Of a stretch of DNA of 64,000 nucleotides, positions 36,339 to 51,093 are shown piece by piece. Within the stretch, counting starts at the first letter, position 1, and each line of letters begins with the position of its first letter. Below the pieces are notes generated by a model. That model worked only from the letters and a program-made list of their open reading frames with translations, was not told the origin of the DNA and did no database searches. Source of the stretch: Sagittula sp. P11. GTDB taxonomy: Bacteria; Pseudomonadota; Alphaproteobacteria; Rhodobacterales; Rhodobacteraceae. Made by a program: the position numbers and the translations under genes. The stretch lies in assembly GCF_002814095.1 (NCBI RefSeq), contig NZ_CP021913.1, positions 3,788,501 through 3,852,500 on the forward strand. The letters run 5' to 3'.

Positions 36339-37295
36339 TCAGGCCGCGCGGGTCGGACCGGCGGGGTCTCCGGTTCCGGTGATGCGGTAGAGCGCGGCGT
36401 CGCCAGTCATGGAGGGCGCGACACGGTAGGAAAGGTTCTCGGGGACGCTCATCGTGTCGCCGGGGGCGAGGATGGCGTGTCCATCCGTCCAGTCCACCCG
36501 CCAGTGGCCCGTCACCGGCATCAGCACGGTCGGGTGCGGCGCGGCGGGCTGTTCGCCACCGGCGGAGGCGCGGGTGATGAAGTCGACCTCGAAGCCGGGC
36601 CGGTCCTTCAGCAGGCCCGTGGCGCCGATGACCTTGCAGGGCGTGCGGTCGGCCAGGGCCACCATGTCCCAGTAGCGTGCGACGTGGTTGGGCAGGACCT
36701 CGGCCGTGGTGGGTTCCGGCCGCTTCGCCAGTTCCTCGTCCGACATCAGCGGCATGGGATTCACACCCTCGGGCAGGCGCTGCTGGCGCTTGGTGTCGTA
36801 GAGCTTGCCGTCGTCGCCCAGCACGAGCCCGTGCGCGCGGGCATCCTCGATCACCTGCGGCGCCCACATGACGCCGCCGCCCGCGTCGTCGCCGCCGAGG
36901 ATCGCCATGATCATCCCGTAGTCGGTGCCGATGTTCTCGAACCCGCGGAAGATGCCGGTGGGGATGTTGAAGATGTCGCCCGCCTCGAGCACCACCTCTC
37001 CGGCGGTGCCCCAGCGGCCCCAGAAGAACCGCCACCGGCCCGAGAGGACGAAGAACGCCTCGGCGGTGTGGTGGTCGTGGAGCGAGTTGCGGCACCGGGG
37101 CGGCTGGCCTGCGGCACCGATGTTGAAGCCGTGCGGGATCGAGATGTGGACGTGCTGATCGGGCGATTCCGACACGCCGCCGCCGATGATGGTGAAGTTT
37201 TCCTTCTGGTCCGAGCCCGGCGTGTGGGCGTCGATGAAGGCGGTCTTGCAGGGCTGAAGCTCGCCGTAGCGGACGATGCGGTCAGAGAGATCCAT
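36339..37295 (-). CDS. cupin-domain protein (bicupin) of the LacI-controlled cluster
   Basis: A 318-residue protein with a metal-binding cupin domain: the motif LHDHHTAEAFFVLSGRWRFF at about residues 72-91, then AGDIFNIPTGIFRGFENIG. A second, more degenerate cupin-like half near the C-terminus reads VTGHWRVDWTDGHAILAPGD. The function could be a dioxygenase, isomerase or ligand-binding role. It starts 3 bases after the HisD-like gene stop, so it belongs to that operon and to the inferred LacI regulon. Confidence 0.7.
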   Translation of the reverse strand: MDLSDRIVRYGELQPCKTAFIDAHTPGSDQKENFTIIGGGVSESPDQHVHISIPHGFNIGAAGQPPRCRNSLHDHHTAEAFFVLSGRWRFFWGRWGTAGEVVLEAGDIFNIPTGIFRGFENIGTDYGMIMAILGGDDAGGGVMWAPQVIEDARAHGLVLGDDGKLYDTKRQQRLPEGVNPMPLMSDEELAKRPEPTTAEVLPNHVARYWDMVALADRTPCKVIGATGLLKDRPGFEVDFITRASAGGEQPAAPHPTVLMPVTGHWRVDWTDGHAILAPGDTMSVPENLSYRVAPSMTGDAALYRITGTGDPAGPTRAA

Positions 37296-37298
37296 GGA

Positions 37299-38648
37299 TC
37301 AGGCTTTCTCGGGGGTTGCGGTTTTCTCGGAGGGCAGGACGGGCGCCGCCTCGGCGTAGGGCACGTTGACGCCGCCGTATCGGCGCACACGAAGGTTGCA
37401 TTGCTCGGCATGCCCGGCGAACCCCTCCAGCATGCACAGCCGGGAACCGGCGGCGCCGATGCGGGCGGCGGCCTCGTCGGTGGTGATGCGCTGGTAGCTG
37501 TGGGTCTTCAGGAACTTGCCCACCCAGAGGCCACCGGTGTAGCGGCCCGCCTTCCGGGTTGGCAGGGTGTGGTTGGTGCCGATCACCTTGTCGCCGTTGG
37601 CCACGTTGGTGCGCGGCCCGAGGAAGAGCGCGCCGTAGCAGGTCATGTTCTCGAGGAACCAGTCGTCGCGGTCCGTCATGACCTGCACGTGTTCGGAGGC
37701 AATGTCGTCCGCGACCGCCAGCATCTCGTCGTAGGTGTCGCACAGGATCACCTCGCCGTAGTCGGTCCAGGAAGCGCGGGCGGTGTCGGCGGTGGGCAGG
37801 ATGGCAAGCAGGCGCTCGATCTCTGCCAGCGTGTCGTAGGCCAGCCTCTGGGAGTTGGTCAGCAGCACGGCGGGGGAGTTGTAACCGTGTTCCGCCTGTC
37901 CCAGCAGGTCCGTGGCGCAAAGCTCGGCGTCCACGGTGTCGTCCGCAATGACCATCGTCTCGGTCGGGCCGGCGAAGAGGTCGATGCCGACGCGCCCGAA
38001 GAGCTGGCGCTTGGCTTCGGCGACGAAGGCGTTCCCGGGACCGACGAGCATGTGCACCGGCTGCATCGTCTCGGTGCCGATGGCCATGGCGCCGATGGCC
38101 TGGATGCCGCCCAGGACCCATATCTCATGCGCGCCGCCGAAGTGCATGGCGGCGATGACGGCGGCGTTGGGCTGGCCTTTGAAGGGCGGGGTGCAGGCGA
38201 CGATGCGCGGCACCCCGGCGACCCGCGCCGTCGCCACCGACATATGCGCCGAGGCGACCATGGGAAACTTGCCGCCGGGCACGTAGCAGCCGACCGATTG
38301 CACGGGAATGTTCCTGTGGCCGAGGATCACGCCGGGGAGGGTCTCGACCTCGATGTCCTGCATGGAGGCGCGCTGCGCCTCGGCAAATTTCACCACCTGT
38401 GCCTGTGCAAAGCGGATGTCGGCGATCTCCTGTTCCGACAGGGTGGCGATCAGGGCATCGATCTCGTCCTGCGACAGGCGGAAGCTGTCCGGCGTGTAGC
38501 CGTCGAACTTCTGCGACAGGTCGCGGACGGCGGCATCTCCGCGCGCCTCGATGTCGGCGAGCGTGGTTTCGACCGCGGTGCGGACCTGCGCATCGTCCTG
38601 TCGGCGGTCCGCGTCCGCCTTGCCGCGTTTCAGATACGTGATGGCCAT
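37299..38648 (-). CDS. HisD-family NAD-dependent dehydrogenase, catabolic paralogue 1
   Basis: A 449-residue zinc- and NAD-dependent dehydrogenase of the histidinol dehydrogenase fold, a family that oxidises an alcohol through the aldehyde to a carboxylate. Zn-site positions of HisD are conserved: Q and H in [11 protein letters not shown], Asp in [14 protein letters not shown] and His in [10 protein letters not shown]. The catalytic Glu-His pair is in ASEHVQVMT. The N-terminal [11 protein letters not shown] and [14 protein letters not shown] segments look like the sulfopropanediol dehydrogenase HpsN type, not biosynthetic HisD. I chose ATG 38648 because GAGGGG lies just upstream. Operators lie 16 and 71 bases upstream. 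Confidence 0.82.
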
Positions 38649-38663
38649 GATCCCCTCGCCACT

Positions 38664-38679
38664 TTGCATACGTTTGCAA
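38664..38679. promoter_or_regulatory. LacI-type operator O1 (HisD-like 1/cupin unit)
   Basis: TTGCATACGTTTGCAA, palindromic around a central CG, 16 bases upstream of the HisD-like 1 start codon. One of seven matching sites in the cluster. Confidence 0.8.
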
Positions 38680-38718
38680 TCATGGATAGCGGCACGGCGT
38701 AGCTGCGGCAAGCGTATT

Positions 38719-38734
38719 TTGCATACGATTGCAA
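38719..38734. promoter_or_regulatory. LacI-type operator O2 (HisD-like 1/cupin unit)
   Basis: TTGCATACGATTGCAA, with the symmetry extending to a 20-base palindrome-like site at 38717-38736. It is 55 bp from O1 and has the same core as O7. Confidence 0.82.
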
Positions 38735-38786
38735 AATTGATCGGGCGCGGGGACAGAATGAACGAGGGGCCGCGCGGGCCCCTCGG

Positions 38787-39791
38787 TCAGTCGCGGGTGG
38801 TGCCGCGCGGGATGGGGACGGGCATGATCCGCAGCTTGGTCGCGGGCCTGTCCTCGCCCTCTATCGCGCTGATCAGCTCGTCCACGGCGGTCGAGACCAT
38901 GACGTTCAGCCGCTGCCTTACGGTCGACAGGTTGAAGGACGGCCAGGCCGCCTGCGGGATGTCGTCGAAGCCCACGACGGCCACGTCCTCCGGCACCCGG
39001 AGGCCCAGTTCGTGCCGGATCACGTCGAGCGCGGCCAGCGCCATGTGGTCGTCGGTGACAAACAGGGCGTCGGGCGGGGTGTCCCCCTCGAAGAGTTCGC
39101 GGGTGGCGTCCGCCGCGTCGCTGTAATGGAAGTTGCCCACCGCGCGGGCCACGACGCTCTTGCCGGCCTCGGCCAGTGCCGCGGTGAACCCGGCCTCCCG
39201 GTCGATCTGGGTGGAGGCGCCGTCGAAGCCCGCCAGATGCGCGATCCGCTGCGGGTTGCCCTTCAGCAGCATTTCCGCGGCCAGGCGCCCGCCCGCGACG
39301 TTGTCGGAGGTGACGGCCAGGAGGTCCTCCCTCGGCTGGTCGCGGTTGAACAGCATCACCGGGATGTTGCGTTCGCGGCAGCGGTCGGCCAGCGTCGAGG
39401 ACATGGAGACCGACACCAGGATGATGCCGTCGACCCGGTAGTCGAGGATGGTCTGCACCACCGGCTCCACGTCGCCGACGGTGGTCGACGCCATGAACAG
39501 CAGGACGTGGTAGCCGTTTTCCTGCAGGGCGATCGACAGCTTCTCCACCGCTTCGGGATAGAACTGGTTCTCGAGGTAATAGACCACCAGCCCGATGATA
39601 CGGCTCTTGCCGGTGATCATCGCGCGGGCCAGCACGTTGGGGCGGTAACCCAGTTCGTCGGCGGCCGCCTTGATCTTTTCCGCCATCTTCTTGGACACCG
39701 AGGCGCCGGGCGTGAAGAAGCGCGAGACGGCCGATTGGCTGACGCCGGCCCGGCGGGCCACGTCGACGGAGGTCACAGGTTTGCCGCTCAC
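38787..39791 (-). CDS. LacI-family transcriptional regulator
   Basis: A 334-residue repressor-type regulator. The N-terminal helix-turn-helix reads VTSVDVARRAGVSQSAVSRF, and the hinge (YRPNVLARAMITGKS) carries the Leu-Ala pair that inserts into a central CpG. The rest is a periplasmic-binding-protein-like ligand domain (GIILVSVSMSS; VVGFDDIP). It is the last gene of the ABC transporter operon, so it is probably co-induced. Its best candidate targets are the seven palindromes at 38664, 38719, 45432, 45487, 45554, 51024 and 51078. The ligand is unknown. Confidence 0.93.
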   Translation of the reverse strand: MSGKPVTSVDVARRAGVSQSAVSRFFTPGASVSKKMAEKIKAAADELGYRPNVLARAMITGKSRIIGLVVYYLENQFYPEAVEKLSIALQENGYHVLLFMASTTVGDVEPVVQTILDYRVDGIILVSVSMSSTLADRCRERNIPVMLFNRDQPREDLLAVTSDNVAGGRLAAEMLLKGNPQRIAHLAGFDGASTQIDREAGFTAALAEAGKSVVARAVGNFHYSDAADATRELFEGDTPPDALFVTDDHMALAALDVIRHELGLRVPEDVAVVGFDDIPQAAWPSFNLSTVRQRLNVMVSTAVDELISAIEGEDRPATKLRIMPVPIPRGTTRD

Positions 39792-39861
39792 GCCGGTTGA
39801 GTCTCTTTGACCATAGAAATCCGTCCTCGTCCCTGTCCGGCCTCTTTACCCTTGCACACCG

Positions 39862-40917
39862 TCAGCGGCGCGTCAGATTCTTTCCCGTCTCGACATCGAA
39901 TAGGTGGCAGGTCTCGGCCGGGATATCGGCATGTATAGTCTTGCCGATCTCCGCGCGGAAGTCCTTGGCGGCCTTGAGGTTCACAAGATCGCCGCCGACG
40001 CGCACCGCGGCCATCGACGCCTCGCCCAGAAGCTCCAGCGCGTAGATCGGCGCGTGGATGTCGCCGCCCTCGGGCGCCAGCGTGACGTCCTCCGCCCGGA
40101 AGCCGAGGATCACCTTGCCGTGGTGGCCTTGCGGCAGGCCCGAGAGGCGGATGTTCTCGGCCGAGAAGGTGCCGTTTTCGATGGTGCCCTCGACCAGGTT
40201 CATGGCGGGGGAGCCGATGAAGCCGGCGACAAAGGTGTTGGCGGGGTTGTCGTAAATCTCTGTCGGTGTGGCGACCTGCTGCACCACGCCCCTGTTCATC
40301 ACCACCACGCGGTCGGCCAGCGTCATCGCCTCGATCTGGTCGTGGGTCACGTAGATCGTCGTGGTCTTGAGCCGGTGCTGGAGGTTCTTGATTTCGGCCC
40401 GGGTCGAGACGCGCAGCTTGGCGTCGAGGTTCGAGAGCGGCTCGTCCATCAGGAAGACCGTGGGTTCGCGGACGATGGCCCGGCCAAGCGCCACGCGCTG
40501 CCGCTGGCCGCCCGACAGTTCCGCCGGACGCCGGTCGAGCAGTTCCAGCAGGTCGACCTGTTCCGCCGCCTTCATTACCCGGTCGTGGTGCTGGTCCTTC
40601 GGCACCTTGCGGACCTTCAGCGGGAAGCGGATGTTGTCGTAGACCGTCAGGTTCGGGTAGAGGCCGTAGCTTTGGAACACCATGGAGATGTCGCGGTCCT
40701 TGGGTTCGAGGTTGTTGACGACGCGCCCGCCGATGATGATCTCGCCCTCGGTGACGTCCTCCAGCCCGGCGATCATCCGCATGGTGGTAGACTTGCCGCA
40801 GCCCGACGGCCCGAGCAGTACGAGGAACTCCTGGTCCGCTATATGCAGGTCGAAGTTGTCGACACCGATCACCGTGCCCCACTTCTTGGAGATGTTTTTC
40901 AGGTGAATGTCGGCCAT
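39862..40917 (-). CDS. CUT1 sugar-type ABC transporter ATP-binding protein (MalK/UgpC-like)
   Basis: A 351-residue ATPase with Walker A GPSGCGKST near residue 38, Q-loop FQSYGLYPN near residue 82, signature LSGGQRQRVALGRA near residue 135 and Walker B VFLMDEPLSNLD near residue 155. The C-terminal regulatory TOBE/OB domain (residues 235-351) marks the MalK/UgpC group. It energises the adjacent importer from the cytoplasmic side. It starts 5 bases after the downstream permease stop. Glycerol-phosphate, polyol or oligosaccharide import are all possible. Confidence 0.93.
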   Translation of the reverse strand: MADIHLKNISKKWGTVIGVDNFDLHIADQEFLVLLGPSGCGKSTTMRMIAGLEDVTEGEIIIGGRVVNNLEPKDRDISMVFQSYGLYPNLTVYDNIRFPLKVRKVPKDQHHDRVMKAAEQVDLLELLDRRPAELSGGQRQRVALGRAIVREPTVFLMDEPLSNLDAKLRVSTRAEIKNLQHRLKTTTIYVTHDQIEAMTLADRVVVMNRGVVQQVATPTEIYDNPANTFVAGFIGSPAMNLVEGTIENGTFSAENIRLSGLPQGHHGKVILGFRAEDVTLAPEGGDIHAPIYALELLGEASMAAVRVGGDLVNLKAAKDFRAEIGKTIHADIPAETCHLFDVETGKNLTRR

Positions 40918-40922
40918 TTGGC

Positions 40923-41801
40923 TTACCCCTTGACGGCGCCCGCGGTCAGGCCGCTGACGATCTGGCGTTGGAAGAACATTACGAGGATGAAGAGCGGCAC
41001 GGTGGCGGATACGGTCGCGGCCACGGCATACATGATGGTGCCCTCGGTCTGCACCGTCCCGAGGAAGGAGTTGATCTTGGGCACCATGGTCTGGTTGTCC
41101 TGGTTCAGCAGCATCGCGGTCACGGCGAAGTCGTTGTAGGCCAGAAGGAAGCTGAACAGCCCCGTTGTGATCACCCCCGGCCACATGACCGGCATGATGG
41201 CCCATCGGAACGCCTGGAAGCGGGTGCAGCCGTCGACCATGGCAGATTCGTCGAGGTCCTTGGGGATCGACATGAAGAACGAGTGCAGCATCCAGATGGT
41301 GAAGGGCTGGTTGATCGCCACCAGCACGATGATCGCGGTGGGCAGGTAGCCCCAGATGTTCATCTCGAAGAACGGTAGCAGGTAGCCCGAGACCAGCGTG
41401 ATGTGCGGCATGGCGCGGAACACCAGCGCGGCGATCAGGATCCAGAAGGTGTACTTTCGGGTGGATCGCGACAGGGCGTAGCCCCCCAGCGTGCCGAACA
41501 GCAGCGAGATCGAGGTGACGCAGACCGTGACGATGACGGTGTTCCAGACAGAGTGGTAGAACTCCCGCTCCACCCATGCGCCGCGGTAGCCGTCCAGCGT
41601 GAAGGCGCCGCCGGTCTGGCGCTGGGTGGCCGGGCCGAAGATCGCGTTCCAGAAGGACTCGCGGCTGAAGAAGTCCGCCTGCACCTTGAACGACCCCCAG
41701 ACCGTCCAGAAGAAGGGGAAGGCGGCAAGGATCAGCCAGACCAGGAGGATCAGGCCCGAAGTCACGGCCAGCGTGCGGGAGTGTCCGATTTGCGTGCTCA
41801 T
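40923..41801 (-). CDS. CUT1 ABC transporter permease (MalG-like)
   Basis: A 292-residue inner-membrane permease with six hydrophobic helices. The EAA-type coupling loop is DLDESAMVDGCTRFQAF near residue 195. The ATG overlaps the stop of the first permease (ATGA). It pairs with that MalF-like protein to form the translocation pore of the importer. Confidence 0.92.
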   Translation of the reverse strand: MSTQIGHSRTLAVTSGLILLVWLILAAFPFFWTVWGSFKVQADFFSRESFWNAIFGPATQRQTGGAFTLDGYRGAWVEREFYHSVWNTVIVTVCVTSISLLFGTLGGYALSRSTRKYTFWILIAALVFRAMPHITLVSGYLLPFFEMNIWGYLPTAIIVLVAINQPFTIWMLHSFFMSIPKDLDESAMVDGCTRFQAFRWAIMPVMWPGVITTGLFSFLLAYNDFAVTAMLLNQDNQTMVPKINSFLGTVQTEGTIMYAVAATVSATVPLFILVMFFQRQIVSGLTAGAVKG

Positions 41802-42832
41802 CAGCGGGCCTTCCGGTTGAAGTCGCGCCAGGTGCGGATCAGCACCGGCATCAGCAGGACGATCACGCCCAGCATGGTCAGGATCGAGGTCGCCGCCGCC
41901 GAGCCGAAGAGCTGGTCGACCGAGCCGTTCAGGTCGTTGTAGATCGACCAGGACAGCGATGTGGCGTTGGCCTCGGACGAGAAGCCGATGATCGGTTCGA
42001 AGACGCGGAAGTTGTCCATCAGCAGCACGAGCCCCACGAAGGTCGCCAGCGGTGTCAGGTGCGGCATGACCACGTATCGGATGCGCTCCCACCGGTTGGC
42101 GCCGTCGATCATCGCGGATTCGAGCGTGTCCTTGGGCAGGGTCTGGAGACCGGCGTAGAAGACGACGAAGGCGAAGGGGGTCATGTGCCACGTCCCGTAG
42201 ACGATCAGCGTGACCCACGTGAGGAAGGGCGAGGCCTTCAGCGACAGTTCCGGATCGTCGAACACCCATTGCAGCGTCGCGCCGATTACCCCGTCGGAGT
42301 TGATCATCCAGAACAGGATCAGCGAGCCGAGAAGCGGCGTCACGATGTAGGGCAGGAGCGACAGGAAGATCACCGGCCCCTTCCAGAACTTCGGGATGTT
42401 GTTGACCCCGAGCGCCACGGCAAAGCCCATGATCATGCTCAGCGGCGTCACGAGGAAGGTGTAGACCAGCGTGAAGGACAGCGCCTTGTAGAACGGCAGG
42501 TTGTAGACGCGGCTGACCACGTCGCCGAGACCGTTGTTGTCCGACAGGATCGCGCCCAGTTCGTCCACCGCGAGGTGCGCGCGGTTCAGGTAGGTGCCCA
42601 GACCGTTGAACCGGCCCAGAGGGTCCGCCTCCTTCAGGGCGGCGGTGGCGTCGGGGTCGACCTTGGTTTCGGTCTGGCAGCCGAAGGGGCCGCAGTTTTC
42701 CACCGACACCAGCACCTGCTCATGCTCGACGAACAGCGACTGCACCGCCACCGACACGATCGGCAGGGCGATGAACAGGAGCATGGCGAGGGCAGAGGGG
42801 AAGATGAAGGCGGTGAAGTCGCGATGGCGCAT
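41801..42832 (-). CDS. CUT1 ABC transporter permease (MalF-like) with Cys-containing loop
   Basis: A 343-residue permease with TM1 at about residues 9-31 and the EAA loop LPKDTLESAMIDGANRWERI near residue 235. Between TM1 and TM2 is a periplasmic insert of about 80 residues (roughly 35-115) with two Cys in ENCGPFGCQ, which could make a disulfide and contact the binding protein. It overlaps the next permease gene by one codon in the ATGA pattern. Confidence 0.92.
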   Translation of the reverse strand: MRHRDFTAFIFPSALAMLLFIALPIVSVAVQSLFVEHEQVLVSVENCGPFGCQTETKVDPDATAALKEADPLGRFNGLGTYLNRAHLAVDELGAILSDNNGLGDVVSRVYNLPFYKALSFTLVYTFLVTPLSMIMGFAVALGVNNIPKFWKGPVIFLSLLPYIVTPLLGSLILFWMINSDGVIGATLQWVFDDPELSLKASPFLTWVTLIVYGTWHMTPFAFVVFYAGLQTLPKDTLESAMIDGANRWERIRYVVMPHLTPLATFVGLVLLMDNFRVFEPIIGFSSEANATSLSWSIYNDLNGSVDQLFGSAAATSILTMLGVIVLLMPVLIRTWRDFNRKAR

Positions 42833-42892
42833 TTCCGTCTCCTGATGGAAGGACGCCCCCGGCGGAAGAGAGACCGGGGGCGTGAGAGGCGA

Positions 42893-44122
42893 TTACTGGA
42901 GGAAGCCCGCCTCTTTGGCCGCGGTGCGGTAGGCGGCCTCGACGTCGGCCAGGGCCTGCTCGGCGCTTTCGGTGCCCTGCATGAAGTCCGACAGTTCGGC
43001 CCCGAGCGCAGTGTGCATCAGGCCCATGTAGGGCGACATCGGGTAGGGCTTGGCCCCCGCAGCGGCGGTGCCCAGCACACCCTGCGCGGAGGCGGGTGCG
43101 GCGAAGTCCTTCATCAGCCATGTCGCGGCGGAGGGGTTCTCCTGCGCGATTTCCGGGCGGATGCCGTGGACCATCGCGATGAAGGAGGCCTCTGCATCCT
43201 CGTCCGAGATGTTCCTGGCGATGGTGAAGCCGTCCCACCACAGCGCCGCCGCCGGGACCGAGCCGCCGCCGACGGTGGGCGCGGGGGCCAGCACGGTGGC
43301 TTCGCCGATCTCGGGGGCAGGGCCCGCGGGGTCGATATGTCCGTTCACCATGGAGCCCCACTGGGTCATGATCGCCACGTCGCCCGAGAGGTACATCGCC
43401 TTCATCTCGTCGGCGGTGAAGGTCATGTACTCGGGTTCCATGTACTCGGTCATGGCCTTCATCATCTCGAGCGTCTTGATGCCCGCCTCGCCGGAGATCG
43501 CCGGTTCCGCGCTGCCGGCGGCAAAGAACTCGCCGCCGTAGCCCAGGTAGGTGTTGACGAATTCATTGGCCAGGTACCAGCCCGCCTGATCGGCGGCGGC
43601 CAGCGGGTATTCCATGATGCCCTTCTCGCGGATGATCTTCGCCGCCTCGAGGATGCCCTCCATGGTCGTCGGCTGCTCCAGACCGGCCTCTTCCAGCACG
43701 TCGCCGCGGATGAAGAGGTGCTGGCCGTTGCCCATGAAGGCGATGGCCATGGTCTGCCCGTCGATCTTGATGAGCTGCGAGGGCTGGAGCGTGTCGCCGT
43801 ATTTCTCGACGAGGTCGTCCAGCGGACGGATCAGGCCGTTGTTCAGCAGCGGCACGATCGAGTTGTTGGCCACGACCGCGACCGTGTACTGCGCCGGATC
43901 GACGGTGAGCGCGGGCACCTGAAGCGCCTTGTGTTCGGTCGTCATGTTGCTTTCGACGGTGACGCCGTCGCCGGCGCAGGTTGCGGCTTCGTCGATCACG
44001 ATGCCGAGCGCGTCGAAGTCGTTGGCGAGGATGCGGACCGAACCGCTCTCGATGCCGCAACCCGCCTGAGCGGCTCCGGCAGCAAGGATCACGGCCAGCG
44101 CCGTGGAGGTCAGTGTTTTCAT
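42893..44122 (-). CDS. ABC transporter extracellular solute-binding protein (family 1)
   Basis: A 409-residue periplasmic receptor with signal peptide MKTLTSTALAVILAAGAAQA. The fold is that of cluster-B sugar binding proteins: a hydrophobic strand VRILANDFDAL at the start, the conserved block DVAIMTQWGSMVNG near residue 250 and IGEATVLAPAPTVGGGS near residue 275. Two Cys near the mature N-terminus (GCGIE and ATCAGDG) may pair. It delivers the unknown substrate to the two permeases encoded downstream. Confidence 0.92.
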   Translation of the reverse strand: MKTLTSTALAVILAAGAAQAGCGIESGSVRILANDFDALGIVIDEAATCAGDGVTVESNMTTEHKALQVPALTVDPAQYTVAVVANNSIVPLLNNGLIRPLDDLVEKYGDTLQPSQLIKIDGQTMAIAFMGNGQHLFIRGDVLEEAGLEQPTTMEGILEAAKIIREKGIMEYPLAAADQAGWYLANEFVNTYLGYGGEFFAAGSAEPAISGEAGIKTLEMMKAMTEYMEPEYMTFTADEMKAMYLSGDVAIMTQWGSMVNGHIDPAGPAPEIGEATVLAPAPTVGGGSVPAAALWWDGFTIARNISDEDAEASFIAMVHGIRPEIAQENPSAATWLMKDFAAPASAQGVLGTAAAGAKPYPMSPYMGLMHTALGAELSDFMQGTESAEQALADVEAAYRTAAKEAGFLQ

Positions 44123-44203
44123 GGGCTCACTCCTTGTCGGGGTCCGGCGGCGTGTTGGTGCCGCCGCTCGGATGTGGTGCGTGGGGTCATCCCCACGCTT
44201 GTT

Positions 44204-45397
44204 TCAGTTGTCCAGCGCTTCTTCGGCGGATGGTTTGTCGGCAAGCTGCGCGATCCTGATCTGCGCGAGCAGGGCAAGCTCGTCGTAGACCGTCCATTCG
44301 TCGACGATCTTGCCGTCCTTGTAGTGGTAGTGGCTCATCCCCATGACCTGCACACGCTTGCCGGTGGGACCGCCCAGAGAGTCGAGCCCGCCGAAGCCCA
44401 GGTGATGGCCTTCCATGACCCAGCGCACGGCAACCTTGGTGCCGCCTTCGTTGCAGGGGGTGGAGCAGATGTGTTGTGGCGCGAACTGGGCATCGGGGAA
44501 GGCGCCGACCAGCGCAAGCGCCTGATGGGTGACAGAGGCCACGCCGTAGAGCTCCTTCATCAGCGGGCCGTGCCACATGACGGTGGGAGCATAGATGTCG
44601 CGATAGCAGCCGAACATCTTCCTGTTGAACGACTCGTGCAGCCAGGTCAGCGTGTGGCGTTCGAGGTCGGTGTGCGCGATCGACAGATCGGCTTTCTCGG
44701 CAGGCGGGTACTGTCCCAGCATCAGGCCGGTCTCGCCGATGTCGAGCGTTTTGAACCCCTGTGCCAGCCGGCCCTCGGCGATCTTCGTCGCGTAGGCGTC
44801 CACGTCGAGACCGAGCTGCCGAATGATCGCCATCTGGTCGGACACCACCCATTCGCGGTAGATCTTGTTGCGGTGGATCATGCAGTCGGCCACCGTCCGG
44901 CTGACGAAGGGACGGCCGTTCGCCGGGCCGTAGTGGCCGTTCTGCGTGTAGCGGCCCGACCCGGTGACGAGGTGCGAGGTGTAGAACCCGTCCTTGTCAT
45001 TGCCGTTCCAGACGACCTGGGTGGCATTGCCGCGCCGCTCGGGCAGGGAGACGAGCCGCTGGATGGTGTCGCGCACCACGTCCTCGCGGTTGTAGATCGT
45101 CATCGTCGGCAGGTAGAGCACGATATTGTGGGTGTAATGGGTGTAGATCAGGCCCACGTCCCGCTCGTCCCAGATCTTGTGGGTGCAGCGGATGATGTAA
45201 TCGACGATATCGCTGTAACAGGGATCGAAGCCCTCCATTCCCTGCACGGGCGCGCGGCCCTCAGGGACAAGGTCGGTGAAATCGGCGCGCTCGACATTCA
45301 TCACGTTGCCATTGTGCGGGCCATCGTCGCGTTTGTCCCGCGTGGTGACGGATTTCGCCGATTTGGCAAGTGTTGCGCTGTCGTCGTGAGAAGCCAT
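44204..45397 (-). CDS. tandem NTF2/SnoaL-like fold protein (397 aa)
   Basis: The protein appears to contain two NTF2/SnoaL-like domains, at about residues 55-195 (IWDERDVGLIYTHYTHNIVL) and 230-385 (FNRKMFGCYRDIYAPTVMWH). Each has the helix-helix-strand entry and the H-Y-rich curved sheet of ester-cyclase/polyketide-cyclase relatives. Single-domain members include cyclases, isomerases and hydrolases. It is the first gene of the transporter operon, so it may process the substrate or its first intermediate. It starts with a polar stretch of 40 residues. Operators lie directly upstream. Confidence 0.7.
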   Translation of the reverse strand: MASHDDSATLAKSAKSVTTRDKRDDGPHNGNVMNVERADFTDLVPEGRAPVQGMEGFDPCYSDIVDYIIRCTHKIWDERDVGLIYTHYTHNIVLYLPTMTIYNREDVVRDTIQRLVSLPERRGNATQVVWNGNDKDGFYTSHLVTGSGRYTQNGHYGPANGRPFVSRTVADCMIHRNKIYREWVVSDQMAIIRQLGLDVDAYATKIAEGRLAQGFKTLDIGETGLMLGQYPPAEKADLSIAHTDLERHTLTWLHESFNRKMFGCYRDIYAPTVMWHGPLMKELYGVASVTHQALALVGAFPDAQFAPQHICSTPCNEGGTKVAVRWVMEGHHLGFGGLDSLGGPTGKRVQVMGMSHYHYKDGKIVDEWTVYDELALLAQIRIAQLADKPSAEEALDN

Positions 45398-45431
45398 GTC
45401 GTCCTGTCCATTTCGCGGGATGTCCCGCGTC

Positions 45432-45447
45432 TTGCATACCTATTCAA
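45432..45447. promoter_or_regulatory. LacI-type operator O3 (transporter/amidase divergent promoter)
   Basis: TTGCATACCTATTCAA, 35 bases upstream of the NTF2-like gene start. The left half-site is perfect, the right is degenerate and the centre lacks CpG. Confidence 0.65.
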
Positions 45448-45486
45448 TCCAAGGTGACGCAGGTGCGGGCGGCAAGCAACAAGAAA

Positions 45487-45502
45487 ATGAATACCTATGC
45501 AA
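45487..45502. promoter_or_regulatory. LacI-type operator O4
   Basis: ATGAATACCTATGCAA, 55 bp from O3 and 67 bp from O5, in the middle of the divergent promoter region. Confidence 0.65.
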
Positions 45503-45553
45503 AATATTCATCCGGCGGACAGGATAAGCGAACTGACGCTTGCGCACCGGCTG

Positions 45554-45569
45554 TTGAATACATATGCAA
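45554..45569. promoter_or_regulatory. LacI-type operator O5
   Basis: TTGAATACATATGCAA, 35 bases upstream of the start of the small AtzG-like gene on the plus strand. Confidence 0.7.
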
Positions 45570-45604
45570 AATCAGGACGTACGCGGGTTTCGAAAGGGAT
45601 CGGG

Positions 45605-45742
45605 ATGACTGCCAGGGACTTTGCCGAATTGTTGCGCGCCGCCGGGATTGTGCTGTCCGAGCAGGAGGTTCAGGCCGCCTGGCCTTCGGCCCGCAAGCTG
45701 CTGGACCTCGCGAATCAGCTTCCCGGGCCGCGCGATGATTGA
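45605..45742 (+). CDS. small DUF4089/AtzG-like protein, likely amidase partner
   Basis: A 45-residue helical protein (MTARDFAELLRAAGIVLSEQ then EVQAAWPSARKLLDLANQLP). In size, position and helical character it resembles DUF4089/AtzG, a GatC-like stabilising subunit of amidase-signature hydrolases such as AtzE. The ATG at 45605 follows AAAGGG with good spacing. A longer reading from 45497 would cross operators O4 and O5 and looks unlikely. It overlaps the amidase gene by 8 bases. The assignment is by context and pattern only. Confidence 0.55.
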   Translation: MTARDFAELLRAAGIVLSEQEVQAAWPSARKLLDLANQLPGPRDD

Positions 45743-47051
45743 CGCCCCGATCCGCGCGCAGGCCGCTGCCGTGGCTGACGGCACGATCAAGGCCACTGAT
45801 CTCGCGCAGGCCACGCGCGACCGCATCGCCGCACGGGACACCATTCTGCGCAGCGTGGTGCATCGGGCCGACCCCGCGGCGCTGGACGGACCGCTGCACG
45901 GTGTGCCTTTCGGGGTGAAGGACATCATCGACGTGGCGGGGCAGCCGACGCGCTGTGGTTCGCACGCGCACGCCGAGACAGGGCCGGAGGCCACCGCCGT
46001 CACCCGGCTGCGCGCGGCGGGCATGGTGCCGATGGCGAAGCTCGCGACTTATGAATACGCGCTCACCGGCCCGGCATGGGACCAGCCGAACCCGCCCGCG
46101 CGCAACCCGCGGAACCCGGAGCACATCACCGGCGGATCGTCGTCCGGCTCTGCGGCGGCGGTGGCGGGGGGCCTGTTCCGCGTGGCGCTGGGGACCGACA
46201 CCGGCGGCAGCATACGCGCCCCGGCGGCCTATTGCGGTATCGTCGGCCTGAAGCCGACGCATGGCGCGGTGCCGGAGGACGGATGTTTCCCTCTGTCCCC
46301 CAGCCTCGACGTGATCGGCCCGCTGGCCACCACGGTCGAGGACGCCGCTGTCGCGCTGGAGGTCATGGCGCCGGACACCCGTGCCGCGCAGGCGCTGGGT
46401 CAGGGGATCGACGGTCTGCACATCGGCTACGCGCGCGACTGGTTCGCCGAGGACCCGGCCTGCGCGCCCGAGGTGCTGCGTGCGCTGGACGACACAGCCG
46501 CCTTGTTGTCCCGCCTCGGCGCGCGGATCGAGCTGGTGTCATTGCCGGACTATCCGCAGCTTGAGGCCGCCGGGACCGTGATCCTGCAATACGAGGCGTG
46601 GCAGGTGCATCGGTCGCGGCTGGCCGGGCGCTGGGACCGTTACGGCGTGGACGCCCGGCGCAACCTCGTCACCGGCGCGGTGCTGACCGAAGACCATGTC
46701 GCACGGGCGCGCGCCGTGGCCGTGGCATTCAGGGCTGCCGTCGACACGCATTTGGCGCGCCACGCCGCGCTGCTGACGCCGACGACCCTGTCGCCGGCGC
46801 CCAGGTTCTCGGATTTCGAGGATGGGCCGGTCTGGACAGCGATGCGCACGTTGCCGTTCAACATGAGCGGGCATCCGGCGATCTCCGTGCCCTGCGGCTT
46901 TGCCGACAACGGGATGCCGCTTGGCGCACAGTTTGTCAGCGCACACGGGCAGGAGGCGCTGCTCTGCCGGATCGCCGCCGCCTTCGAAAGCGCCTGCGCC
47001 GCAACCGCCTGCAGGGCCATGCCCGCCGACCCCGTTGTGATCGGCGCATGA
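45735..47051 (+). CDS. amidase-signature hydrolase (AtzE-like)
   Basis: A 438-residue amidase of the Ser-cisSer-Lys family. Lys is in GVPFGVKDIIDVAG near residue 60, the cis-Ser in GGSSSGSAAAVAGG near residue 134, and the nucleophilic Ser in GTDTGGSIRAPAAYCGIVG near residue 158. It hydrolyses a C-N amide, carbamate or urea-type bond; the exact substrate is unknown. The pairing with a tiny upstream gene mirrors AtzG-AtzE (1-carboxybiuret hydrolase) operons. It lies in the LacI-controlled cluster just downstream of O3-O5. Confidence 0.9.
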   Translation: MIDAPIRAQAAAVADGTIKATDLAQATRDRIAARDTILRSVVHRADPAALDGPLHGVPFGVKDIIDVAGQPTRCGSHAHAETGPEATAVTRLRAAGMVPMAKLATYEYALTGPAWDQPNPPARNPRNPEHITGGSSSGSAAAVAGGLFRVALGTDTGGSIRAPAAYCGIVGLKPTHGAVPEDGCFPLSPSLDVIGPLATTVEDAAVALEVMAPDTRAAQALGQGIDGLHIGYARDWFAEDPACAPEVLRALDDTAALLSRLGARIELVSLPDYPQLEAAGTVILQYEAWQVHRSRLAGRWDRYGVDARRNLVTGAVLTEDHVARARAVAVAFRAAVDTHLARHAALLTPTTLSPAPRFSDFEDGPVWTAMRTLPFNMSGHPAISVPCGFADNGMPLGAQFVSAHGQEALLCRIAAAFESACAATACRAMPADPVVIGA

Positions 47052-47126
47052 GGCGGGGCACAGCGTCGGGCGGGGATTGACGCAAGGGGCGGATACGGGT
47101 TCGCTGACGCGAAAAGGAGATCGCCC

Positions 47127-47543
47127 ATGCCGGAAGAGATCTACGAAGGCGGTTGCCTCTGCGGGGCGTTGCGCATCACGGCGCGCGGACAACCGCAGCG
47201 CGTCGGTATCTGCCACTGCCTCGACTGCCGCAAGCACCATGGCGCGCTGTTCTATGCCGCCGCGCAGTACGCCCCCGAACAGGTCGCCGTGACCGGGCTT
47301 TCCCACAGCTTCAAGGGGCGTCACTTCTGCCCGACCTGCGGCGGTTCCGTCTTCGCGGAAAGCGACGGTGAGGTCGAGGTGCATCTGGGCGCACTGGACG
47401 AACCCGACCGGCTGACACCCGACTACGAGCTCTGGACCGTGCGCCGCGAAGGGTGGTTGCCGCCCTTCGCGGCGATGGCTCACTATGATCGGGATCGAGA
47501 GGAGCCGGGCGCGGCGACGGATGGCGCGCCCGGCTTCCCGTGA
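47127..47543 (+). CDS. GFA-domain protein (glutathione-dependent formaldehyde-activating-like)
   Basis: A 138-residue zinc protein with three Cys motifs of the GFA/CENP-V family: GGCLCGALRI near residue 9, CHCLDCRKHHG near residue 30 and FCPTCGG near residue 70. Most members with this fold are not proven to bind glutathione or formaldehyde. It lies 75 bases after the amidase on the same strand, so it may be cotranscribed. Its end is 4 bases from the convergent second HisD-like gene. Confidence 0.87.
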   Translation: MPEEIYEGGCLCGALRITARGQPQRVGICHCLDCRKHHGALFYAAAQYAPEQVAVTGLSHSFKGRHFCPTCGGSVFAESDGEVEVHLGALDEPDRLTPDYELWTVRREGWLPPFAAMAHYDRDREEPGAATDGAPGFP

Positions 47544-47547
47544 CGGA

Positions 47548-48837
47548 TCAGGCCTGAACCTGCATCCTGTCCAGCCGCAGTTGCGCGGCGCGGCGGTGAC
47601 CTTCGAGCGTTTCCGAGGCCGCCTGACGTGCCGCCGGGGGCGCCACCTGCTTCACCCCCTCTTCGGTCAGCCACTGGTGGGTCACCGTCTTGATGTAGGT
47701 GCCGACCCACAGCCCGCCGGTGTAGCGACCGGCGCCCATGGTCGGCAGCGTGTGGTTCGTGCCGGAGCATTTGTCGGAATAGACCACAGAGGAGTTCGTC
47801 CCGATGAAGAGCGAGCCGTAGTGGCGCAGCCGTTTGCCCAGCCCGTGCGCATCCTCGGTGTGGACCTGCAGGTGCTCGGCGGCCACGATGTCGGAGTAGG
47901 CGATCATCGCCGCCTCGTTCTCGCAAACGACGATCTCGCCGTAGTCGCGCCACGCCTGACCCGCGGTCTCGGCGGTCGACAGGGTTTCGAGCTGGGCGTC
48001 GACTTCCTTCAGCACGGCATCTGCCAGCGCGGCATCGGTGGTGATCAGGCCGACACGGGTGCGGGTGTCATGCTCGGCCTGCGCGAGGAGGTCGGTGGCC
48101 AGCATCTCGGCATCGCCGGTGTGGTCGGCAAGGATGAAGATCTCGGACGGGCCGGCAAGCTGGTCGATGCCCACGGGACCGAAGACCTGGCGCTTGGCCT
48201 CGTTGACGAAGGCGTTGCCCGGCCCGACGATCTTGTCCACCGCCGGAACGGTTTCGGTGCCCAGTGCCATGGCGGCGATTGCCTGCGCGCCGCCGATGCG
48301 GAAGATCCGGTCGGCGCCGGACAGGTGGCAGCCGGCGATCATCGCCTCATGCGCGTTCGGCGGCAGGCAGGCGATGACCTCTTCACAGCCGGCGACCTTG
48401 GCGGGGACGATGGTCATGATCGGCGCCGACAGCAGCGGGTAGCGTCCGCCCGGTACGTAGCAGCCGACGCGCTCCAGCGGGATGTTGCGGTGGCCGAGGT
48501 GGACGCCCGGGCGCACCTCGATCTCGATCTCCGACAGCGACGCAAGCTGCGCCTCGGCAAAGGCGCGGACGTTGGCAATGGCGAACTCCGTGTCGGCGCG
48601 GGTCTGCGGGTCGAGGTTGGCCAGCGCCTGTTCGCGTTGCTCGGCAGTGACCTCGAAGCTCTCCAGCTCGGCCTTGTCGAAGCGGGCGGAGTAGTCGCGC
48701 ACGGCGGCGTCGCCCTCTGCTTCGACCCGGGCGAGGATCTCGGCAACCAGCTTCTCGACCGGCGCGTTGTCGGCGACGGCGTCGCGGGCGGGGGATTTGA
48801 CGAAGGTCAGGCCTTCGGGAAGGGGGAGACGGGGCAT
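47548..48837 (-). CDS. HisD-family NAD-dependent dehydrogenase, catabolic paralogue 2
   Basis: A 429-residue second HisD-like dehydrogenase. Metal and catalytic positions are conserved ([43 protein letters not shown]). As in paralogue 1, the segment VRPGVHLGHRNIPLERVGCY differs from biosynthetic HisD and resembles HpsN-type enzymes. The two share the same architecture but have clearly diverged, suggesting different steps or substrates. It is the last gene of the SDR-hydrolase-RraA unit. A role in histidine synthesis is unlikely, but homology alone cannot exclude it. Confidence 0.82.
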   Translation of the reverse strand: MPRLPLPEGLTFVKSPARDAVADNAPVEKLVAEILARVEAEGDAAVRDYSARFDKAELESFEVTAEQREQALANLDPQTRADTEFAIANVRAFAEAQLASLSEIEIEVRPGVHLGHRNIPLERVGCYVPGGRYPLLSAPIMTIVPAKVAGCEEVIACLPPNAHEAMIAGCHLSGADRIFRIGGAQAIAAMALGTETVPAVDKIVGPGNAFVNEAKRQVFGPVGIDQLAGPSEIFILADHTGDAEMLATDLLAQAEHDTRTRVGLITTDAALADAVLKEVDAQLETLSTAETAGQAWRDYGEIVVCENEAAMIAYSDIVAAEHLQVHTEDAHGLGKRLRHYGSLFIGTNSSVVYSDKCSGTNHTLPTMGAGRYTGGLWVGTYIKTVTHQWLTEEGVKQVAPPAARQAASETLEGHRRAAQLRLDRMQVQA

Positions 48838-48882
48838 GTGTGTCCTCTGGCGTTACAGGTAGGGGCGGTCCGGAGGGCCGCC

Positions 48883-49578
48883 TCAGGTTCTGGCATTCTC
48901 GAAGGCGGTCCAGGCCGCCTCGAAGCTCTGGAAGTCGAAGTCGGGGGCGCCGGCCGCCTCCATCACGATGGATTCCGTCCGCTGCATCTTCGCGATGGCG
49001 GCGGGCAGTTCGGCAAGGTGCGTCTCGGGGATGACCAGCGCGCCGTGGCGGTCGGCATGGACCCAGTCATCGGGCCGGACGGTCAGACCGAAGACTGTCA
49101 CCGGACCCGCGACCTCGACCACGTGGACGAAGGCGTGGGAGGGCCCGATGTGCCCGGCGACGACAGGGAAGCCCGGGGCCAGGTCGCCCAGGTCGCGCAT
49201 CACGCCGTTGGTCAGCGCACCGCTCAGGCCGAAGCCCTTGTGCACGGTGGTGTTGAGTTCGCCCCAGTAGGCGCCGACCGGGTGCGGGTCGATGTCCTCG
49301 ACCACGGCAACGCGCGGGCCCGCGCCGTCCGCCATGTGGCGGTAGTAGTCCATGCGGCGGGCGCGGATCGTCGCGGCGGGTTCGGAGGGGGGCGCGGCGG
49401 CGCTGATCCGCGCGGTACGCGCCCGGCCGACCATGACGCCTTCGGGATCGCTGGACAGCGGGGTGCCCCGGGTGAAGGCATCGAAGCCGCGCTTGCCGTC
49501 GATCACCTCGATGGCGTTGCAGACGGTCGGCGTGTCGACGCTGCGCAGCAGGGCGAGGATGTCGGTCAGGTCAGCCAT
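48883..49578 (-). CDS. RraA/HMG-aldolase-like protein
   Basis: A 231-residue member of the RraA/MenG-like superfamily. Many members are 4-hydroxy-4-methyl-2-oxoglutarate aldolases or oxaloacetate decarboxylases, and others are RNase E regulators. The family metal/active-site block is visible as SGALTNGVMRDLGDL near residue 120, with TPTVCNAIEVIDGK at the start. In this catabolic setting a lyase role is more likely than RNase regulation. The start overlaps the hydrolase gene end by 13 bases. Confidence 0.82.
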   Translation of the reverse strand: MADLTDILALLRSVDTPTVCNAIEVIDGKRGFDAFTRGTPLSSDPEGVMVGRARTARISAAAPPSEPAATIRARRMDYYRHMADGAGPRVAVVEDIDPHPVGAYWGELNTTVHKGFGLSGALTNGVMRDLGDLAPGFPVVAGHIGPSHAFVHVVEVAGPVTVFGLTVRPDDWVHADRHGALVIPETHLAELPAAIAKMQRTESIVMEAAGAPDFDFQSFEAAWTAFENART

Positions 49579-50249
49579 TGGATCAGGGCCTCCGTTGTCG
49601 TGTCGGGTTGTTCGAGCGTGGGCAGATGGCCCGCCCCGTCGATCACGCGATAGGTGGCGTGAGGCATGCAGCGGTGCATCAGGTCGTGCCTGTCGCGCGG
49701 ACAAAGCCTGTCCTCCGCTCCGGTGAGGATCAGCGCCGGTCCCTTGTAGGCGCGCAGCGTGTCGCATTGGTCGGGCCGGTCGCGCAGGGCGATGCTCTGT
49801 CGGGTGAAAACGTCTGGCCCAAGGTCCAGGGCCATGTCGAGGCAGGTCCGCTCGATCCCGGCATCGGGCGCGGCGAGGTAGCGGGGAATGAAGGTGTCGC
49901 GCATCATCGCCGCCAGTTCACCGGCCTGCGCACGGGCAATCTGGGGGCCGCGGCCAGCCTGAACCGCCGCCGTCTCAGGCAGGGGGTTGGTGTCCAGCAG
50001 GGCCAGCCGTGCGACGCGGTCGGGGGACTGGCGGACGACCTCCATCGCGACGATGCCGCCCATGGAAAGCCCCGCCAGGGCGAAGCGGTCGGGGGCGTCG
50101 GCCAGCACCCGGGTGGCCATCTCCTGCACCGTGTCGTCGCGCGACAGGTCCGCGCAGAGGGGAGCATGATCAGACATCGCGGCCATCTGCGGCGCAAAGA
50201 GCCGGTCGTCACACATCATGCCGGGCAGGAAGAGCAGCGGCAGCGTCAT
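49566..50249 (-). CDS. alpha/beta-hydrolase
   Basis: A 227-residue hydrolase with nucleophile elbow GLSMGG (Ser near residue 80), acid in LTGAEDRLCP near residue 175 and His in IDGAGHLPTLE near residue 205. The start MTLPLLFLPGMMCDDRLF carries the usual HG-like oxyanion segment. It may open a lactone or ester in the pathway. The ATG at 50249 overlaps the SDR stop (ATGA), so it is translationally coupled. Confidence 0.88.
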   Translation of the reverse strand: MTLPLLFLPGMMCDDRLFAPQMAAMSDHAPLCADLSRDDTVQEMATRVLADAPDRFALAGLSMGGIVAMEVVRQSPDRVARLALLDTNPLPETAAVQAGRGPQIARAQAGELAAMMRDTFIPRYLAAPDAGIERTCLDMALDLGPDVFTRQSIALRDRPDQCDTLRAYKGPALILTGAEDRLCPRDRHDLMHRCMPHATYRVIDGAGHLPTLEQPDTTTEALIQWLT

Positions 50250-51001
50250 GCGGCGGTCCATCCGCCGTCCACCATCAGCGCGGTGCCGGTCACCAGCCGC
50301 GAGGCGTCGGAGGCGAGGTAAAGCGCGGCTCCCATCAGGTCCTCGACCTCGCCCACGCGGTCCAGGGCGATCTTGCTCATCACCCATGCGCGCTTGTCCG
50401 GGTCGTTGAAGGTCGGCTCCGTCAGCGGGGTGCGGACGAAGGTCGGGCACAGCGTGTTGATGCGCACGCCCGCCGCGCCCCATTCCAGCGCCATCGCCTT
50501 CACCATACCCTCCAGCGCGTGTTTCGAGGCGCAATAGACCGCGCGATCCGGCCCGCCGACATGACCCATCTGCGAGGAGACGTGGATGATCGACCCTGGC
50601 TTGCCCGCCGCGATCAGCGACCGCGCTGCATGCTGCGACAGGAAATACGCGGCGCGCAGGTTCACCGCCATCACGGCGTCGAAGTCCGCGCCGGTGGTGT
50701 CGAGGGCAGGGGAGTGCCGTGCCATGCCGGCCGCGTTGACCACCACGTCGAACGGCCGGTCGAAGAAGGCCGCTACCTGATCCGTATCGGCAATGTCGCA
50801 GGCCTGTTTCCGGACCGCCCATCCTTCGGCCTGCATGGCCTCGACCGCTTCGGTCAGAGGGGCGGGGCGGCGTGCGACGCAAGTGACCTCCGCCCCGGCC
50901 TCGGCCAGTGCCACGGCGCACCCCAGCCCGATCCCCGAAGAGGCCCCGGTCACGAGCGCGCGGCGCCCGTCCAGTCGGAAGGAAGGTGTACGGGGCAGCA
51001 T
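50246..51001 (-). CDS. short-chain dehydrogenase/reductase of the LacI-controlled cluster
   Basis: A 251-residue classical SDR: TGASSGIG near residue 19, NAAGMA near residue 88, catalytic Ser in HVSSQMG near residue 141 and YCASKHAL (Tyr/Lys) near residue 155. The segment INTLCPTFVRTPL and the C-terminal VDGGWTA are typical of polyol/gluconate 5-dehydrogenase-like enzymes. It is the first gene of the unit SDR, hydrolase, RraA, HisD-like 2. Operator O6 lies 22 bases upstream of its ATG. Confidence 0.9.
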   Translation of the reverse strand: MLPRTPSFRLDGRRALVTGASSGIGLGCAVALAEAGAEVTCVARRPAPLTEAVEAMQAEGWAVRKQACDIADTDQVAAFFDRPFDVVVNAAGMARHSPALDTTGADFDAVMAVNLRAAYFLSQHAARSLIAAGKPGSIIHVSSQMGHVGGPDRAVYCASKHALEGMVKAMALEWGAAGVRINTLCPTFVRTPLTEPTFNDPDKRAWVMSKIALDRVGEVEDLMGAALYLASDASRLVTGTALMVDGGWTAA

Positions 51002-51023
51002 CGTCGGGTCCTCGGCAGTCGTG

Positions 51024-51039
51024 TTGAATACGTTTGCAA
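51024..51039. promoter_or_regulatory. LacI-type operator O6 (SDR unit)
   Basis: TTGAATACGTTTGCAA with central CG, 22 bases upstream of the SDR start codon. Confidence 0.8.
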
Positions 51040-51077
51040 TATCGGTATCCGCGACGCCGCATTCCTGCAAGCGATTT

Positions 51078-51093
51078 TTGCATACGATTGCAA
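51078..51093. promoter_or_regulatory. LacI-type operator O7 (SDR unit)
   Basis: TTGCATACGATTGCAA, 54 bp from O6 and identical to O2 over at least 20 bases including flanks. Confidence 0.82.

Follow-up and report, generated by a model that had tools for sequence, protein, structure and literature searches.

A probable local LacI-family regulon with paired operators around predicted promoters in Sagittula sp. P11

Seven putative operators in one gene cluster

We analysed a 64-kb stretch of the Sagittula sp. P11 genome (contig NZ_CP021913.1, positions 3,788,501 to 3,852,500; hereafter the window), which holds a gene cluster combining a LacI-family regulator with an ABC transporter, dehydrogenases and an amidase. 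The cluster very probably constitutes a local catabolic regulon, in which the LacI protein encoded at 38787-39791 would bind seven 16-mer operators and repress four transcription units, its own operon included. The initial annotation of the window had already proposed that this gene controls the transporter, the dehydrogenases, the amidase and a short-chain dehydrogenase/reductase (SDR) unit together; the confinement of the sites, their conservation and a Gln-Ser recognition pair that no other LacI-type regulator of this genome has all lend support to that proposal. The four units were deduced from gene order and start codons, and their co-transcription from gaps and overlaps. Unit A would comprise hisD1 and a cupin gene; unit B the genes for a SnoaL protein, a solute-binding protein, two permeases, an ATPase and the LacI regulator (lacI); unit C, divergent from B, an open reading frame (ORF) of 45 amino acids and the amidase gene; and unit D the genes for an SDR, an alpha/beta hydrolase and an RraA-like protein, followed by hisD2. 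All seven 16-mers were found at the positions reported in the initial annotation (window coordinates, no strand):

38664-38679: operator, unit A proximal, central CG, TTGCATACGTTTGCAA, 26.6 bits
38719-38734: operator, unit A distal, central CG, TTGCATACGATTGCAA, 31.1 bits
45432-45447: operator, unit B proximal, centre CC, TTGCATACCTATTCAA, 25.7 bits
45487-45502: operator, middle site common to divergent units B and C, centre CC, ATGAATACCTATGCAA, 25.1 bits
45554-45569: operator, unit C proximal, centre CA, TTGAATACATATGCAA, 29.6 bits
51024-51039: operator, unit D proximal, central CG, TTGAATACGTTTGCAA, 29.9 bits
51078-51093: operator, unit D distal, central CG, TTGCATACGATTGCAA, 31.1 bits

Measured against the canonical LacI-type operator, all seven are 16-nt near-palindromes, and a central CG is present in four and absent in three. 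The ATAC core that had been described is invariant on the plus strand in 7/7 sites, and the sites at 38719 and 51078, said to be identical over at least 20 bases, share 21 identical bases. Their earlier description as near-palindromes centred on a CpG is right for four of these sites and fails for 45432, 45487 and 45554. Likewise, a placement 16-35 bases upstream of the first genes applies to the four gene-proximal sites, not to the distal ones (70-102 bases). With the start codons that we chose, the distance from the end of the proximal site to the first codon is 15 bases for hisD1 (38648), 34 for the SnoaL gene (45397), 35 for the small ORF (45605) and 22 for the SDR gene (51001). Site-to-site spacings within the window are 55, 55 and 54, plus 67 between 45487 and 45554.

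The consensus TTGCATACGWTTGCAA, allowing up to 3 mismatches, recovered 6 of the 7 sites, each on both strands (12 matches), whereas 0.23 matches are expected by chance and the largest number in 100 shuffles was 2. The site at 45487 has 4 mismatches to this consensus. When a symmetric matrix built from the seven sites was scored as 20-mers, the sites received 25.1-31.1 bits, compared with 11.3 bits for the next best place in the window. The initial annotation had suggested a genome-wide search for strong matches scattered elsewhere; in all 5,576,178 bases (7 contigs), every match to TTGCATACGWTTGCAA with 0-1 mismatch fell inside the cluster. The best match outside it (C3:127049), the only one with 2 mismatches, scores 18.5 bits and lies within an open frame resembling an acyl-CoA ligase. 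A whole-genome scan with the CG-free consensus TTGMATANNTATKCAA at 0-1 mismatch also returned cluster sites only. The strong sites keep to the surroundings of the regulator gene, as expected of a local LacI regulon, and the search did not refute the proposal. A global regulon was considered and rejected, as neither genome scan supports it.

The regulator

The regulator belongs to the LacI/GalR family, with a LacI-type DNA-binding domain (PF00356, 48.6 bits, cut-off 27) ahead of a domain like the periplasmic binding proteins (PF13377, 96.2 bits, cut-off 26.5). Among the 11 LacI-type helix-turn-helix (HTH) matches above the Pfam cut-off in the genome, it alone carries the Gln-Ser recognition pair, and Gln-Ser regulators are the rule in related loci bearing the same operators. 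In the most similar other HTH of the genome the pair is Arg-Thr, and a candidate site scoring 14.2 bits lies close to the start of that regulator. That regulator, near C1:3234182 (L173), has the same TPGASV stretch, and its candidate operator is TGATGCACAGGTGTGCAAAG.

Of the Leu-Ala hinge pair that the initial annotation cited for the LacI family, Ala-51 is present, and in place of Leu the protein has Met-54 by alignment to the family numbering. Hinge position 54 usually provides the residue that enters the central CG, according to the available text of an earlier study (PMC2978694). The window's LacI has Met at this position, as do most members of the two regulator clades defined below, unless they have Leu. 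The Lac repressor has 360 residues, of which 2-323 are matched by the window's protein; beyond this match the latter continues for 7 residues, and a tetramer helix is therefore unlikely. The lacI gene stands at the end of the operon preceded by the sites at 45432 and 45487.

Conservation in related genomes

LacI orthologs (E<=1e-60) were detected in 57 of 149 family genomes. The strict motif TTGCAWWCGWWTGCAA occurs in 31 of the 149, 29 with the ortholog and 2 without it (G038, G039), and its reversed control pattern matched none of them. We then counted sites of at least 17 bits in 55 related loci, comprising 40 of 70 non-self LacI matches, nine close named relatives (those of at least 71% among 68 loci found) and six plasmid loci. 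With the window these amount to 1,173,948 bases, and the matrix was trained on the window's seven sites alone. This search gave 126 sites in the 56 loci, 119 of them outside the window, compared with a mean of 2.55 (largest 5) in 20 dinucleotide shuffles of all 56 loci and of 0.92 (largest 3) under 50 palindrome-keeping column permutations of the matrix. As to placement, 123/126 sites precede a mapped cluster gene by no more than 450 bp, and 0/126 fall inside one. Loci with more distant regulators (36-53%; L094-L097, L101, L102, L104, L108, L115) were scanned and kept outside the counts; above 17 bits, L095 holds a single site (24.1 bits, close to a cupin match of 35%), and L096 and L097 hold one apiece (18.9 bits).

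Twelve further stretches around exact matches were inspected; two came from G038 and G039, and ten from ortholog genomes. Within the latter group, the unlinked exact sites of four stretches (L195, L197, L198, L201) precede stray copies of the cluster's ABC operon or cupin gene, and L196 holds a second cluster with the order hisD1-SDR-LacI-SnoaL-cupin. L199 has only a 48% ATPase match; no mapped cluster gene was found in the stretches L194, L200, L202 and L203, although in the last of these a 55-bp pair lies where the contig ends. Neither operator class is represented by an exact site in three congeners that lack the ortholog at E<=1e-80, and one of them (G157) has a site with a single mismatch.

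Paired sites around predicted promoters

Among neighbouring site pairs less than 150 bp apart, 29/47 are spaced 54-56 bp. In all 33 pairs spaced 47-57 bp, a TTG that we read as the start of the -35 element begins 3-6 bases past the upstream 20-mer in the direction of the gene; shuffled spacers gave a mean of 2.7 such pairs (largest 9 in 1000), and the opposite strand gave 1/33. A second conserved patch, 21-26 bases after the start of the TTG, fits a -10 element at 17-bp spacing. The promoters predicted in the window, each at the position kept over the 33 pairs, are as follows (the one of unit B is the weakest, and none was assigned to unit C):

38683-38711, minus strand: predicted promoter of unit A, TTGCCG-17-TATCCA, between its operators
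51042-51070, minus strand: predicted promoter of unit D, TTGCAG-17-TACCGA
45451-45479, minus strand: predicted promoter of unit B, TTGCTT-17-CACCTT (weak -10)

This geometry suggests that two LacI dimers may act together to clamp the promoter, one directly before the -35 (centred near -50) and the other over the start region just past the -10 (centred near +5). Both would let go once the regulator binds an inducer, for which the imported compound or one of its breakdown products is the likeliest candidate. In the divergent transporter/amidase region, the three sites would serve both units, with the middle one common to both directions. Three sites are also found there in L085, L086, L087, L093 and L153, a number that L088 and L158 reach as well when weaker sites are counted; window included, the SnoaL-side pair is spaced 54-57 bp and the amidase side 67-79.

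Members of the LacI family usually repress, and some, such as Cra, activate. Activation here would mean that the dimer adjoining the -35 recruits RNA polymerase, and the fixed distance between upstream site and -35 would suit this. It is kept even in the three pairs spaced 47-48 bp, in which the upstream site stays at the -35 and the downstream one shifts towards the -10. The downstream site, however, covers the predicted start region, where bound protein would block the polymerase, and together with the habit of the family this makes activation very unlikely. The paired sites also recall E. coli lac and gal, which have more than one operator per promoter. Their spacing and geometry differ from those of the cluster, where both sites abut the -35/-10 core. 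The predicted clamp at about 55 bp goes beyond what the initial annotation described, and it is absent from the site-spacing peaks (13, 22 and 32 bp) named in the available text of a large LacI survey (Ravcheev et al. 2014, PMC4052901).

Two operator classes and two regulator clades

In a tree of 61 LacI rows, the window's LacI falls in a clade of 14 rows (clade A, support 100/100); we use clade B as shorthand for the 44 other rows of at least 50% identity, small side branches included. Loci without a clade-A regulator have a central CG in 69/70 sites. In loci where only a clade-A regulator is in view, CG is absent from 21/24 sites of the SnoaL-transporter and amidase genes, compared with 3/21 sites of the other units (Fisher 8e-7, a test that treats sites as independent, which those of related loci are not). 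In Alloyangia (L153) and Roseibium (L154), LacI proteins of clades A and B occur together in the cluster, and CG is absent there from 4/5 sites of the transporter/amidase region and from 1/6 elsewhere. Across the five genomes searched in full (Sagittula sp. P11 and those of L085, L086, L088 and L093), none of which has a further ortholog of at least 50% identity, the corresponding counts for sites of at least 17 bits are 14/14 and 0/8. The split, with CG at enzyme units and CG-free centres at transporter, lacI and amidase genes, is thus mostly kept in clade A.

The Gln-Ser pair occurs in 11/11 parsed clade-A rows (three were unparsed) and 37/44 clade-B rows, the remaining clade-B rows having Arg-Ser, whereas the residue after the recognition-helix Arg is Phe or Tyr in 11/11 clade-A rows and Val in 38/44 clade-B rows. 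Exact copies of TTGMATANNTATKCAA were found in 4/101 relatives, namely the P11 genome itself, G042, G035 and G184. G042 has a clade-A regulator but CG in the free centre, G035 has no clade-A regulator, and G184 is AT-rich with no ortholog listed.

CG-free and CG-centred sites coexist by unit, so that, on the simplest reading, one LacI probably serves both operator classes. Two regulators could instead share the cluster, with the window's LacI on the CG-free sites of transporter, lacI and amidase only and another LacI-family protein on those of the enzyme units, whose centre is CG; in relatives, the clade-B paralog might play that part. The division of the classes by unit and the joint presence of both clades in L153 and L154 fit this arrangement. 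The P11 genome, however, has a single ortholog at E<=1e-60; a search for a second cognate LacI found none at that threshold or with the same recognition pair, and the nearest other HTH differs in both recognition pair and candidate site. The genomes of L085, L086, L088 and L093 also lack a second ortholog of at least 50%, and L085 and L093 still keep CG-centred pairs. We consider a second regulator unlikely.

Several observations weigh against a local regulon under one repressor. The exact strict motif is missing from 28/57 ortholog genomes, and G038 and G039 carry it with neither an ortholog nor mapped cluster genes nearby. In six of the 56 loci (L047, L061, L068, L073, L083, L092), several of them cut by contig ends, no site reaches 17 bits. 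The class split has exceptions in clade-A-only loci (3/24 and 3/21 sites), and the weaker third transporter-region sites of L088 (16.0 bits) and L158 (16.7 bits) are CG-centred. G035, whose best regulator belongs to clade B, has one exact CG-free site with no mapped cluster gene beside it. Finally, an upstream site at about -50 would suit an activator too.

Dehydrogenases, substrate and pathway

The two dehydrogenases, hisD1 and hisD2, are 47% identical to each other. Both are closest to HpsN structures, hisD1 at 5.5e-118, which sets them apart from biosynthetic HisD, though the hisD model TIGR00069 passes its cut-off for both. His126, which contacts the sulfonate, separates dehydrogenases of 2,3-dihydroxypropane-1-sulfonate (DHPS) from histidinol dehydrogenases, according to the available text of PMC11382572. 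At this position, by alignment to 8v35 and 8wwe, hisD1 has Met and hisD2 has Leu, so neither qualifies as HpsN; counting the window's own genes and all copies that are 70% identical or more, Met stands there in 46/46 for hisD1 and Leu in 14/14 for hisD2. Two further HisD-like genes are present in the P11 genome; the HpsN loop GRYAH occurs in one of them and is missing from the other. The gene with this loop, at C1:3023017-3024225 (L161), is the likelier DHPS dehydrogenase of Sagittula sp. P11.

A DHPS pathway with an HpsR variant as its regulator would explain the company of a LacI gene with HpsN-like and SDR genes, an arrangement shared with the Ruegeria pomeroyi regulon hpsR-hpsKLM-hpsN-hpsO-hpsP as it appears in the available text of two reports (PMC4334477, PMC11131964), and the match of hisD1 to HpsN structures points the same way. 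By comparison with that regulon, the cluster has an ABC rather than a TRAP transporter, two HpsN-like genes whose products both lack His126, and additional SnoaL, cupin, RraA and amidase genes. Since His126 is absent from both dehydrogenases and the HpsN-type loop lies in another gene, DHPS catabolism was set aside as the function of the cluster; we regard it as highly improbable. No paper on an HpsR operator was found by title among the best 20 of 1,485 literature matches.

Clues to the substrate are few. The solute-binding protein resembles sugar- and polyol-binding proteins, by a weak match to solved structures, and the cupin and SnoaL proteins found no informative relatives among such structures. 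The imported compound is probably a hydroxylated, sugar-like or amide-bearing molecule. In a literature search, to which supplements and other databases did not belong, 'histidinol dehydrogenase' and 'ester cyclase' were not found joined. We advance, as a possible but still doubtful extension, a LacI subfamily of Rhodobacterales and Hyphomicrobiales with a two-dimer clamp of about 55 bp, whose clade with an aromatic residue after the Arg would also read the CpG-free class, mainly at the transporter/regulator promoter. Uptake and enzymes might then respond at different thresholds, and the pathway might be an undescribed one, its two dehydrogenases being distinct from both HpsN and HisD.

Comparison with described LacI regulons

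As far as the available text of the LacI survey goes (PMC4052901), local LacI regulons share with the cluster 16-nt even palindromes before neighbouring transport and catabolic genes, autoregulation and several sites per control region. They differ from it in spacing, the cluster having 54-56 bp around the promoter, and in the operator centre. The same text gives CG as the central pair for 1173 transcription factors, another pair for 49 and a degenerate one for 29, whereas one operator group of the cluster lacks the usual CG. Judged from its sequence, the cluster appears to be an ordinary local LacI regulon, of which the predicted 55-bp promoter clamp and the CG-free operator class make a variant. 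Genes annotated 'histidinol dehydrogenase' and 'ester cyclase' can thereby be read as parts of a delimited catabolic regulon that is open to testing and is met repeatedly in alphaproteobacteria, in some of them on plasmids. The two operator classes side by side, probably under one regulator, offer a natural test of how a LacI-family protein works without a central CpG, and the spacing that would clamp the promoter is one that the survey does not name among its peaks in that text.

Gene content of the cluster

The genes of the four units are listed below. Both permeases were named from the annotations of relatives rather than by a search of the window proteins themselves.

37299-38648, minus strand: hisD1, HpsN/HisD-like dehydrogenase, unit A; Pfam Histidinol_dh, nearest solved relatives HpsN
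36339-37295, minus strand: cupin protein, unit A; Pfam Cupin_2
44204-45397, minus strand: SnoaL-like protein, first gene of unit B; Pfam SnoaL
42893-44122, minus strand: ABC solute-binding protein, unit B; weak PDB match to sugar/polyol-binding proteins, best 1.1e-09
41801-42832, minus strand: ABC permease 1, unit B; best relatives (76-92%) annotated sugar ABC transporter permease
40923-41801, minus strand: ABC permease 2, unit B; relatives annotated carbohydrate ABC transporter permease
39862-40917, minus strand: ABC ATPase, UgpC-like, unit B; NF008653, 464 bits against a cut-off of 432
38787-39791, minus strand: LacI-family regulator, last gene of unit B; Pfam LacI HTH and Peripla_BP_3, tree clade A (14 rows, 100/100)
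45605-45742, plus strand: small ORF, 45 amino acids, overlapping the amidase start, unit C; relatives of 44-69% before the amidase in L086, L087, L088 and L093
45735-47051, plus strand: amidase, unit C; Pfam Amidase, nearest NCBIfam models AtzE, below cut-off
50246-51001, minus strand: SDR dehydrogenase, first gene of unit D; Pfam adh_short_C2
49566-50249, minus strand: alpha/beta hydrolase, unit D; Pfam Abhydrolase_6
48883-49578, minus strand: RraA-like protein, unit D; Pfam RraA-like
47548-48837, minus strand: hisD2, second HpsN/HisD-like dehydrogenase, unit D; Pfam Histidinol_dh, nearest solved relative the R-DHPS dehydrogenase 8wwe

The amidase with its overlapping small ORF recalls an AtzE-type amidase with its small partner AtzG, the ORF being reminiscent of GatC/AtzG-like partners. 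Unlike that system, the amidase falls below the cut-offs of the AtzE models (244.3 bits against 461 and 227.5 against 425.75) and is not classed as AtzE, and the 45-amino-acid ORF had no Pfam match. The small ORFs that precede the amidase in relatives are annotated as hypothetical. Downstream of the amidase, an ORF at 47127-47543 on the plus strand, perhaps also in unit C, encodes what we take to be a GFA-type protein.

Versions of the cluster occur on plasmids of Rhodobacterales and Hyphomicrobiales (L153-L158). The cluster is likely to be mobile, because such plasmid versions exist and three congeners have no LacI ortholog. The cluster, with a 73% LacI from the same clade as the window's, is also present on a contig titled as a Halomonas metagenome-assembled genome (bin15; L091), through either transfer or mis-binning. 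On plasmid pMaD9 of Marinovum algicola (L155), the cluster is followed by genes annotated for DMSP demethylase and DMSP breakdown. On plasmid pRL8 of Rhizobium johnstonii 3841 (L163), a 79% relative of hisD1 has transhydrogenase and acetate-CoA ligase genes for neighbours; an ABC transporter, a cupin and an amidase are all missing from the annotation of this 25-kb stretch.

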